Of a DNA stretch of 22,800 nucleotides, positions 615 to 7,628 are shown one piece after another. Positions within the stretch are counted from its first letter, which is position 1; each line of letters starts with the position of its first letter. The DNA is from a virus. Position numbers and translations under genes: made by a program. The notes under the pieces are model-generated. The model was not told the origin of the DNA. It saw only the letters and a program-made list of their open reading frames with translations, and ran no database searches. Where the stretch lies: the IMG/VR virus record IMGVR_UViG_3300006919_000491, positions 1 to 22,800 of that record; one strand, 5' to 3'.

Positions 615-686
615 ATCGTTCAGCCAATAGGCCGGAAGTAGGCAATGCCGAAGGAACGCACCTAACTTTAACTAAAGGAGGGTGTA
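615..686 (+). promoter_or_regulatory. Glutamine riboswitch (glnA/Downstream-peptide class) in the 5' UTR of a 65-aa ORF
   Basis: P1 is CGTTC (617-621) paired with GAACG (654-658). P2 is GCC (623-625)/GGC (630-632) with loop AATA. P3 is GGC (641-643)/GCC (647-649). The conserved core strings CGGAAGTAGG (633-642) and CCGAAGGAACGC (648-659) match the glutamine aptamer consensus as I know it from the glnA and Downstream-peptide RNA families. Just 3' of P1, GCACCT (658-663) can pair with GGGTGT (680-685), including two G-U pairs, and would cover the end of the strong Shine-Dalgarno (AAAGGAGGG, 674-682). G658 belongs to both P1 and this hairpin, so aptamer folding and ribosome-site masking compete. 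This suggests glutamine turns translation on, as described for cyanobacterial Downstream-peptide RNAs. Class is firm; the direction of control is inference. Confidence 0.9.
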
Positions 687-884
687 ATGATAGACAGATT
701 CACCCATTTATGGAAAATGAGAAACAAGGAACAAAACTTGTTATCAAAAGCTAAAGCATTGTTTAGTGCAAGAAGCGAAGTTGACATAAATGCAAATGGA
801 ACATCTGGTTATGTAGTAAAACACGGTACAAATAAAGGTAAAGTGTTATCACATAGACCAACCAAGTCCACAAATAATTGGTAA
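687..884 (+). CDS. Small basic peptide under glutamine riboswitch control (65 aa)
   Basis: The ATG follows a strong Shine-Dalgarno (AAAGGAGGG, 4 bases upstream) at the end of the glutamine riboswitch leader, so the start is secure. The product is basic (about 12 K/R against 4 D/E), with a predicted helical N-terminal half (KMRNKEQNLLSKAKALFSAR, residues 10-29) and a Gly/Ser/Asn-rich, probably disordered, C-terminal half. It has no signal peptide and no cysteines. In cyanobacteria this riboswitch class controls short peptides, among them the basic inactivating factor IF17, which binds glutamine synthetase. Size, charge and regulation fit such a factor here, but I see no decisive sequence match, so that role is a hypothesis. 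The stop is followed closely by a hairpin at 892-915. It could act on nitrogen metabolism of the infected cell. Confidence 0.85.
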   Translation: MIDRFTHLWKMRNKEQNLLSKAKALFSARSEVDINANGTSGYVVKHGTNKGKVLSHRPTKSTNNW

Positions 885-5057: not shown

Positions 5058-7628
5058 ATGGCAAAGTTTACTGATAAAATATCAAATCTTTTAAACTCAC
5101 AACTACCAGATTTTGTAGTTGAAGATCACCCAAAGTTTCTTCAGTTCTTAAAAAGTTATTATACTTTTATGGAATCTGCCGAATTAACTTTGACAGATAT
5201 TCAAACTACAGATGGCATACAATTAGAAACAGAAACAAATCAACAAAATGAATTAGTTTTAGATGGTTCACGTATAGATACAGATAGAACACAGTTAGAC
5301 TCTGGTGATAAAATATTATTAGAAAGTTCGTCTTTTGGTAAATTTACTAGAGGTGAAACGGTAACCGGTCAAACTTCAAATGCTACAGCAACAATTTTAG
5401 GTGAAGATTTAAATAACAATAGATTATTCATATCAGCACAAGATAAATTTATAGAAGGAGAAATATTAGTAGGTTCTAGTTCAGCTGCTTCAGCAACCAT
5501 AAATTTATATCGTCCTAATCCAGTAAATTCAATACAAGAGTTATTAAGCTTCAGAGATCCTGATAAAGTAATTTCTAACTTCTTAACTAAATTCAGAAAT
5601 GAATTTTTAAATTCAATACCAGAAAATTTAACAGAGAGTATTGATAAGAGAACATTAATAAAAAATATTAAATCACTTTACAGACTAAAAGGTACACAAA
5701 GTGGTCATCAAATATTTTTTAGAATGTTATTTGGTTTAGAATCTTCTACAACTTATCCTAGAGAACAAATACTAAGAGTATCAGATGGTAATTGGAGTAC
5801 ATCAACAATTATCAGAGCAATAGGTACAGTAGGCAATACTTCAAATTTAATTGGTAGAACAATATCAGGACAAACCACAGGCGCAAGTGCGTTAGTTGAA
5901 AATGTATTTAAATTTCAAATTGGTGCAGATGAAGTTTCAGAATTTGTTTTAAACAAATCTAGTATATCAGGTACTTTTCAAGTTGGAGAAATTATCAGAG
6001 CTACAAGTTCAGATGAATCAGATATTTTTATTAAAGCAACAATTACAGGATTACCAGATAATGCAACAATAACAAATGACGGTAGTTTATATACAATTGG
6101 TGATACTGTATCTTTAACTGCTGGTGGACAAGGCGCAATTATTCAAGTAAATGATATTGGTCGAGGTAGCATTACAGAAATATTAATAGATGATAATGGT
6201 TCTGGATATGAAATAGGTGATAGTGTTGTTTTCAATAATACAGGCACAGGCGGTGGAGCTGCTGTTGCAAAAGTTTCAGTTGTTAACGGTGGATTCACAC
6301 AAGAAGAATCTACATCTACCGTTGACGATCACATAGTTTTAGAAGATGAAACTGTAAGAGGTGATCCTTACACAGGAAATAAAATCGTACAAGAATCTGG
6401 TTCAGGTGATATTACAGATGTTAGAATTATAAATGGCGGTAGTAACTATAGTAAAACACCTACATTAACAGTTTCAAGTTCAGGTGGTTCAGGTGCAAGT
6501 CTAGTAGCATATGGTTCAGAAATAGGAAGAGTATTAGATTTAAAAACTATTGAATCAGGAAAAGGTTACGAAAATTCTCCTACACCTCCAACTTTATCTT
6601 TACCGACAAATGTTTTATTTAAAGATATAACAGGAGGATTTACTGTAGGTGAAACAGTTACAGGTTTAGATTCTTCATCTTCAAGCGTAACAGGTACCAT
6701 TGTTAGTATAGATACGGATAGAAACGTTTTAAAATTAAGTTCAGTTTCAGGAACTTTTGATACAGAAACAATTATAGAAGGCAATACATCTGGTGCAACT
6801 TGTGTTGTTTTAAAATTGGATGAAGCTACAGCCTCTACAACTGTAGTATCACAATTAGAAACAGCAGGTACTTACATAAACCAAGACGGTCATATTTCTG
6901 AATCAACAATGAGAATACAAGATAGTTTATTGTATCAGGATTTTTCTTATGTGTTGAGTGTAGGAAGATCAATCACAGAATGGAGAGATTCATTTAAATC
7001 AACTATGCACAGTGCTGGTTTTTATTTCATAGGTCAAGTTAATATTGAATCACAATTAAATTTACAAATTAGAAATGTAACTACATTAAATTCTGGTGCT
7101 GAGGGCACACCAATACAAGATATATTAAATACACTATTTACTACACTCTTTGGTAGAAGATTAGGAACAGAAACAGATGGTACAACTTTAAGTTCAAATC
7201 CTCAATTGGGTGTCGGTGTTATACCAGGAGATAGTACAATTACACAACTAGGCGCTGGTGAGAGAGATGTTACATTAACACAAAAAGTAACTTTAAAATT
7301 ACCAAATTATAAAGAAGTTACCACTTATAGAAATAACTCTACAAGATTCGGTGTGGGTGTTACAGGTCCTATGTTTAAAACATTAAACAAACATTTACTA
7401 GGAACTAACTTTGGTAGTCAAATTAGAATTGAACAATTGGCAGATTTGAGTTTAGAAAGTACCAAAAATACATCTCTATACTCAATAACACCAACCTTTG
7501 ATGATTATCAACAAAGAATTAAAATTAACTTTGCGATACCATCTGAAATCGGTGAGAAAGATAATAATAGTTTTGATGAAACAAATATTACTTTTGATAC
7601 AGATTCATATAAATTTGATGTCGCTTAA
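5058..7628 (+). CDS. Large baseplate wedge structural protein in the gp7 position
   Basis: 856 residues between gp6 and gp8, where T4 has gp7 (1032 aa), so it is a positional candidate for the gp7 role. I could not recognise T4 gp7 sequence directly. Residues 1-45 form a conserved start (FTDKISNLLNSQLPDFVVED, then HPKFLQFLKSYYTFMESAE). Residues ~160-228 form a helical domain with FLTKFRNEFLNSIPEN and IKSLYRLKGTQSGHQIFFRM. The rest is built of beta repeats: six copies of an F-x-x-G-E-x-(V/I)-x-G-x-(T/S)-S-x-A-x-A-x-(V/I) unit (~96, 131, 264, 307, 528, 567) and several GSGY/GSNY-type repeats (~340-510). RBS AGGAAAG precedes the start. It is co-transcribed with gp6 upstream and is certainly a virion component by context. 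Confidence 0.85.
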   Translation: MAKFTDKISNLLNSQLPDFVVEDHPKFLQFLKSYYTFMESAELTLTDIQTTDGIQLETETNQQNELVLDGSRIDTDRTQLDSGDKILLESSSFGKFTRGETVTGQTSNATATILGEDLNNNRLFISAQDKFIEGEILVGSSSAASATINLYRPNPVNSIQELLSFRDPDKVISNFLTKFRNEFLNSIPENLTESIDKRTLIKNIKSLYRLKGTQSGHQIFFRMLFGLESSTTYPREQILRVSDGNWSTSTIIRAIGTVGNTSNLIGRTISGQTTGASALVENVFKFQIGADEVSEFVLNKSSISGTFQVGEIIRATSSDESDIFIKATITGLPDNATITNDGSLYTIGDTVSLTAGGQGAIIQVNDIGRGSITEILIDDNGSGYEIGDSVVFNNTGTGGGAAVAKVSVVNGGFTQEESTSTVDDHIVLEDETVRGDPYTGNKIVQESGSGDITDVRIINGGSNYSKTPTLTVSSSGGSGASLVAYGSEIGRVLDLKTIESGKGYENSPTPPTLSLPTNVLFKDITGGFTVGETVTGLDSSSSSVTGTIVSIDTDRNVLKLSSVSGTFDTETIIEGNTSGATCVVLKLDEATASTTVVSQLETAGTYINQDGHISESTMRIQDSLLYQDFSYVLSVGRSITEWRDSFKSTMHSAGFYFIGQVNIESQLNLQIRNVTTLNSGAEGTPIQDILNTLFTTLFGRRLGTETDGTTLSSNPQLGVGVIPGDSTITQLGAGERDVTLTQKVTLKLPNYKEVTTYRNNSTRFGVGVTGPMFKTLNKHLLGTNFGSQIRIEQLADLSLESTKNTSLYSITPTFDDYQQRIKINFAIPSEIGEKDNNSFDETNITFDTDSYKFDVA

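Follow-up and report, generated by a model that had tools for sequence, protein, structure and literature searches.

Why does a T4-like phage place a gene for a small basic peptide behind a glutamine sensor, and does the peptide bear on the nitrogen status of the host? The question is raised by a viral DNA of 22,800 nucleotides (positions 1 to 22,800 of the IMG/VR record IMGVR_UViG_3300006919_000491), the whole of which is called the window here. The locus comprises the following features.

482-610, + strand: ORF of 42 residues ahead of the cassette, recognized by tblastn and synteny, with copies in phage Mosig (83% identical) and other relatives
602-609, + strand: T4-type late promoter TATAAATA, an exact match
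615-662, + strand: type 1 glutamine riboswitch aptamer, RF01739 (cmscan, 58.0 bits, E 1.2e-10)
658-685, + strand: expression platform hairpin 658-663/680-685 with an inner helix 666-669/674-677, which holds the Shine-Dalgarno sequence (fold of 615-700)
676-681, + strand: Shine-Dalgarno sequence AGGAGG, read from the sequence
687-884, + strand: 65-codon ORF for a basic peptide of 65 residues, family F1, with a helix at residues 4-28 followed by an NGTSGYVVKxGxNKGK core
892-915, no strand assigned: strong hairpin (-18.9 kcal/mol) separating the peptide gene from the convergent gene (fold and sequence)

In a cmscan search of the whole window, RF01739 was the sole Rfam family above its gathering score, which is 35 bits. 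The alignment is full-length (model positions 1-53 of 53) and places P1 at 617-621/654-658, P2 at 623-625/630-632 and P3 at 641-643/647-649, all three present with the conserved core between them. Judged by this match, the window aptamer belongs to the known class RF01739. The glutamine aptamer of the initial annotation is thus borne out in its coordinates and helices; of the two covariance models named there, RF01739 passed, whereas Glutamine-II (Downstream-peptide, RF01704) stayed below its cut-off throughout the window.

The product of 687-884 (MIDRFTHLWKMRNKEQNLLSKAKALFSARSEVDINANGTSGYVVKHGTNKGKVLSHRPTKSTNNW) belongs to a family of SAR11 small proteins that we named F1 in this analysis. 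We consider 687-884 to be a real gene because relatives were found in about 80 viral contigs and because the median pairwise dN/dS among the 65-residue F1 members is 0.20 (279 pairs), which corresponds to conservative codon change under purifying selection. The small basic peptide gene initially annotated after the leader therefore stands, and the riboswitch together with its peptide gene is secure. In the alignment of window, phage and host sequences, the peptide has the invariant F1 core (G38, Y42, K45 and G47) and the basic N-terminal helix, which AlphaFold2 models with confidence at residues 4-28, the tail being poorly modelled (mean pLDDT 74, pTM 0.36). The peptide matches phrog_32989 (E 9e-11), a phage family without recorded function, and neither it nor its host relatives match any Pfam or NCBIfam family. 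Two other candidates were discarded. The PDB profile match to designed 'Cake' propellers is due to a stretch of 15 residues that recurs in those proteins, and no stretch passes alone. DUF1674 (succinate dehydrogenase assembly) was found in two of ten genomes, in both as a separate gene, and matches none of the F1 proteins.

By its gene content, the phage is a T4-like pelagimyophage close to Mosig. The baseplate genes of the gp6, gp8 and gp25 types match T4-type families, in agreement with the 'T4-like phage' first proposed, and Mosig EXVC030M has the greatest DNA and protein similarity to the window, followed by HTVC008M and Melnitz. The gp8-like protein is 72% identical to its Mosig counterpart over the full length. 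Since the nearest relative is a Pelagibacter phage, the host is most likely SAR11 and not a cyanobacterium. The 42-residue ORF marks the locus, as it is retained in Mosig and other relatives. The genes after the peptide gene are on the opposite strand, and the peptide unit is therefore monocistronic; the hairpin at 892-915, which a T run adjoins on the - strand only, resembles a terminator for the - strand genes. Near the window start, 23-451 encodes the C-terminal part of a PstS-like phosphate-binding protein.

The Mosig locus itself has the same 42-residue ORF, a late promoter variant and an aptamer (50 bits, found by a covariance search of phage isolates), and then a gene for a 51-residue peptide of another family, F5 (Mosig_00116). 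A survey of pelagimyophages reported neither riboswitches nor a usable late promoter motif (PMC7029224); contrary to that reading, Mosig and the window each show both. In 35 of 126 distinct phage upstream regions, the promoter sequence TATAAATA lies no more than 40 bases from the aptamer (mean 1.3 and maximum 5 after shuffling), and TAAATA is present in 81 of the 126 (shuffled mean 10.4, maximum 18). Assuming T4 spacing, the transcript would start at about 615, the first aptamer base. We infer, with good support from these promoters, that the peptide is expressed late.

The family extends into the chromosomes of the presumed hosts. A profile built from phage peptides matched 236 of 297 Pelagibacteraceae genomes, nearly always once per genome. 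After addition of host members, it matched two of 240 sampled Alphaproteobacteria, both of them Pelagibacteraceae already seen, and F1 was not found in the non-SAR11 Alphaproteobacteria of this sample. F1 is therefore common to SAR11 and its phages, and its sequence identifies the window product as the viral counterpart of a small basic protein encoded on SAR11 chromosomes. In two SAR11 genomes, a glutamine riboswitch (60 bits) lies directly upstream of F1, amid housekeeping genes, and the F1 proteins of these two genomes group with a phage riboswitch member (99/97) in a tree of 65 columns in which many forks are unresolved. In another SAR11 group (L387-L403), the F1-like gene follows a gene whose product ends in a GCGESF motif, and some of these upstream proteins end in CSCC or CGCC. 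From the C-termini, we read them as the iron-sulphur carrier type, a context that would point away from nitrogen. Relatives of F5, the Mosig-type peptide, occur in seven of 99 SAR11 genomes, all seven among the 31 of the 99 that lack F1 (Fisher p 2e-4, uncorrected for kinship); this mutual exclusivity rests on seven genomes, possibly of one clade.

Most other host F1 leaders examined contain two consecutive H-type pseudoknots before the gene, such as ACCAT-CCAC-ATGGT-AAGAAA-GTGG and CTCAT-CTAC-ATGAG-TTAAAA-GTAG (e.g. L340:1687-1839, - strand, and L345:1351-1503). They are absent from the host F1 relatives behind the iron-sulphur carrier-type gene. In 12 leaders, 99.5% of cells pair and eight of the 17 pairs have changed on both sides, compared with 24-35% pairing in slid versions of the structure; with F5 leaders included, pairing is 98%, again with two-sided changes at eight of 17 pairs, all these counts applying to a structure chosen from the very sequences counted and leaving aside one leader subgroup with an inserted hairpin. 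A covariance model found one copy per genome, always at the F1 gene, in 15 of 23 genomes, and gave no match in either of the two SAR11 genomes with a glutamine riboswitch. The same tandem pseudoknot precedes F5 in six of six genomes read, with a new compensating variant (GCC/GGC), and the SAR11 genomes devoid of both F1 and F5 have no clear pseudoknot. A strict pattern scan of viral contigs did not find it; a model search found a host-type copy (59.6 bits) in viral contig L188 (5864-5916), before an F1 gene at 5941. The leader has no Rfam match and is not described in the accessible part of the 2009 P. ubique motif paper (PMC2704228). It is a candidate for a new riboswitch class, and the link of F1 to a SAR11 family with a previously undescribed structured leader is firm at the level of sequence.

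In the hosts, the pseudoknot is the leader of F1 or F5, a place taken in the phages by the glutamine riboswitch; thus, two leaders and two peptides appear to be interchangeable. When regulators are swapped at the same gene, it is commonly guessed that they respond to the same state, and the exchange suggests that the tandem pseudoknot may sense glutamine or nitrogen status. It is also the reason to propose that the F1 and F5 peptides would act in the control of glutamine or nitrogen status in SAR11. As the same interchangeable peptides stand behind a glutamine riboswitch or the second leader in host and phage alike, a putative role of the peptide in nitrogen status is plausible and even likely; also plausible is a putative steering of that status by the phage, and the virus would seem to tap a control used by SAR11 itself. 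The best explanation of the whole, to which we give slightly better than an even chance, is a late ON-switch cassette for a SAR11-type peptide that acts in glutamine or nitrogen-status control. More tentatively, and with somewhat less than even confidence, we propose that the tandem pseudoknot class is a sensor of glutamine or nitrogen status that governs either of two unrelated, mutually exclusive peptides, the phages using the glutamine riboswitch instead. If true, one and the same peptide-based control of nitrogen would operate in SAR11 and in its phages through different RNA sensors.

The peptide might be an inactivating factor of the IF7/IF17 kind, made at high glutamine, which would inhibit the host glutamine synthetase by binding. 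In cyanobacteria, the RF01739 aptamer indeed precedes IF7-like and DUF4278 proteins (PMC6316151), and the window peptide is similar in kind in its size, charge and basic helix, but size and charge fit any basic small protein. As kinship, the IF17 link of the initial annotation found no support. The hhalign probability of the peptide family is 0.5% against IF7 and 0.06% against DUF4278 proteins (DUF4278 is the N-terminal part of IF17), whereas phage 'YRG' peptides, the positive control, match DUF4278 proteins at 96%, and there is no NCBIfam IF7A match. The IF7 and YRG comparison sets were collected by sequence motif from riboswitch neighbours, and the one IF7 set member tested against NCBIfam scored E 3e-7, under the cut-off of the model. 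PII was not found in 11 of the 17 genomes searched, seven of these 11 having F1, and another protein could take its role there; against this, PII was found in the other six, some of them F1 or F5 genomes. The nitrogen-limitation response of Pelagibacter ubique is described in the literature as PII-independent. Glutamine synthetase is one candidate for the target of the peptide, and we regard an inactivating factor as unlikely.

Also doubtful is a role in the late phage programme (lysis timing, packaging or host takeover, for instance), for which glutamine would be a mere cue of the metabolic state of the cell. The late promoter ahead of the cassette agrees with it, podophage F1 relatives lie near a DUF3154 protein and a terminase gene, and a lysis role was proposed for the glutamine riboswitch of Melnitz, published as a control of ssrA (PMC9004378). 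However, F1 is a conserved chromosomal gene of the hosts, in which it shares a leader with its partner peptide F5. The Melnitz aptamer sits at the 3' end of the annotated ssrA, which makes control of that gene less likely than control of a 32-codon ORF with a ribosome site, MTLYQQWCYLKAQKEYRRRQKILMYFRIRLKG, that begins 25 bases after the aptamer. This ORF is absent from the annotation, which has one on the opposite strand instead (MZ577097, about 46471-46569; L215:1972-2070), and it is the more likely object of the Melnitz riboswitch.

The preferred reading, a late ON-switch cassette for a nitrogen-status peptide, also requires that glutamine raise expression. In the ligand-free fold of 615-700, the hairpin pairs have probabilities of 0.9-0.99 and those of P1 just 0.03-0.08, and G658 is common to both. 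A hairpin masking the Shine-Dalgarno sequence and sharing G658 with P1, as first proposed, is thus predicted at 658-663/680-685. Among 94 distinct phage leaders with a start codon 12-50 bases 3' of the aptamer, 70 can form such a hairpin (at least four pairs between the bases adjoining P1 and those just 3' of the Shine-Dalgarno core), compared with 50 on average and at most 60 when arms were permuted, a shuffling across related leaders; a second scoring gave a z of 7.5. The arms co-vary (CACC/GGTG, CACT/AGTG, CATCT/AGATG), and all 70 hairpin-forming leaders have C-G as the first pair, to which C659 belongs in the window. The 24 leaders that cannot form it include many with DUF4278 or F3 peptides.

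In the solved aptamer, a junction G is brought to C60 at the base of P1 on ligand binding and pairs with it (PMC11477058). We take C659 as the equivalent of C60 because it directly follows P1. By this mapping, C659 would be needed by both the ligand-bound aptamer and the hairpin, so that binding and hairpin would be mutually exclusive, the logic of an ON switch. With the aptamer bases blocked in RNAfold, the outer part of the hairpin alone was freed, and the predicted switch is therefore incomplete. Glutamine turns expression on in cyanobacterial gifB and in a type 2 case (PMC6316151), and translational ON control of the window peptide is a well-supported prediction. The late promoter would start the transcript at the aptamer, and at low glutamine the GCACCU...GGGUGU hairpin would sequester the Shine-Dalgarno sequence. 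On glutamine binding, P1 would close and C659, its 3' neighbour, would be drawn into the ligand-dependent pair; the hairpin would thereby open and the ribosome start on the peptide gene. The phage would thus add its own copy of the peptide late in infection, when glutamine is plentiful, and the glutamine sensor probably turns on the peptide at that stage.

The converse, an OFF switch or a transcription-level switch by which glutamine would reduce peptide expression, is improbable. In other marine Proteobacteria, the RF01739 aptamer, often in tandem, precedes the ammonium transporter gene amt (TIGR03644) and the genes of type I glutamine synthetase (glnA), GlnII and glutamate synthase (gltB, gltD). 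Such ammonium-uptake and glutamine-synthesis genes are expected to be repressed by glutamine, and the class may work both ways. Nevertheless, their leaders have a different linker, the phage leaders hold a Shine-Dalgarno hairpin that competes with P1, and gifB and the type 2 case were shown to be ON. As for transcription, no T run lies 3' of the leader hairpin in the window. Circularly permuted ATP-grasp proteins were also seen behind glutamine riboswitches of marine Proteobacteria (L220, L281 and L317).

A pattern scan yielded at least 120 viral stretches with an aptamer. At nearly all the loci listed, a short ORF equipped with a ribosome site follows within about 40 bases, and the aptamers are in tandem at 14 of 120 viral loci among the matches listed. 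The 115 distinct peptides among these matches, with a median length of 45 residues, form nine multi-member groups and five singletons; in an all-against-all profile comparison, no kinship was found between groups except the two groups of DUF4278-like YRG peptides. YRG-peptide phages (L042, L082) have a single pseudoknot-like element of the CCAT-AGTC-ATGG-n-GACT type directly 5' of the aptamer. Searching phage records at the DNA level with just the aptamer returned chance matches only. Glutamine-aptamer-like elements with a CGCAAGTA core also precede small ORFs in the cyanophages P-SSM2 (L216, about 1655-1870; the P-SSM2 one matches phrog_504) and ACG-2014d (L217, about 1471-1690).

A search with the window peptide itself led to 80 viral loci, 32 of which have the aptamer directly upstream by pattern. 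In many phages, F1 has neither an aptamer nor a pseudoknot leader and in some cases lies directly after a holin-like or terminase-region gene; glutamine control is therefore not needed everywhere. Some aptamer-less F1 genes (L127, L142, L150 and L159) have a TATAAT-like -10 and, immediately ahead of the ribosome site, a conserved palindrome, TTAGGTTCACCTAA. The presence of at least nine peptide families behind the phage aptamer, and of F1 also without it, would suit a lateral cargo devoid of any glutamine role, captured by aptamer-promoter cassettes that take any small gene, but there is little chance of this, given that 97% of the aptamer-led peptides have a pI >9 compared with 48% of the other small led ORFs on the same contigs, and that in the hosts two of the families again share one dedicated leader.

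As far as the literature searched shows, an exchange of peptides and leaders between phage and host had not been described. SAR11 bacteria count among the most abundant marine cells, and F1 is a concrete candidate for their missing nitrogen control and for what phages alter there. The tandem pseudoknot is a candidate for a new class of RNA whose ligand can be tested. The results also bear on two published readings, the lack of detectable riboswitches in pelagimyophages (PMC7029224) and the control of ssrA in Melnitz (PMC9004378).

A close regulatory parallel is the glnA motif (RF01739) of gifB/IF17 in Synechocystis, with the same aptamer core, three helices, the expected ON logic and a small basic protein; the window differs in its SAR11 myophage setting, its late promoter and a peptide unrelated to IF17. 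The type 2 riboswitch of marine picocyanobacteria (RF01704) is likewise a glutamine sensor before very short ORFs, but it follows a different aptamer model and its peptides are of the DUF4278 type, to which the window peptide does not belong. The phrog_32989 entry matches the window peptide and lacks the riboswitch and the host link. Among phages, Melnitz, a methylophage and related myophage, has the same riboswitch class as the window. Mosig EXVC030M, isolated on SAR11, shares the upstream ORF, the promoter and the aptamer with the window and differs from it in the family of the peptide.
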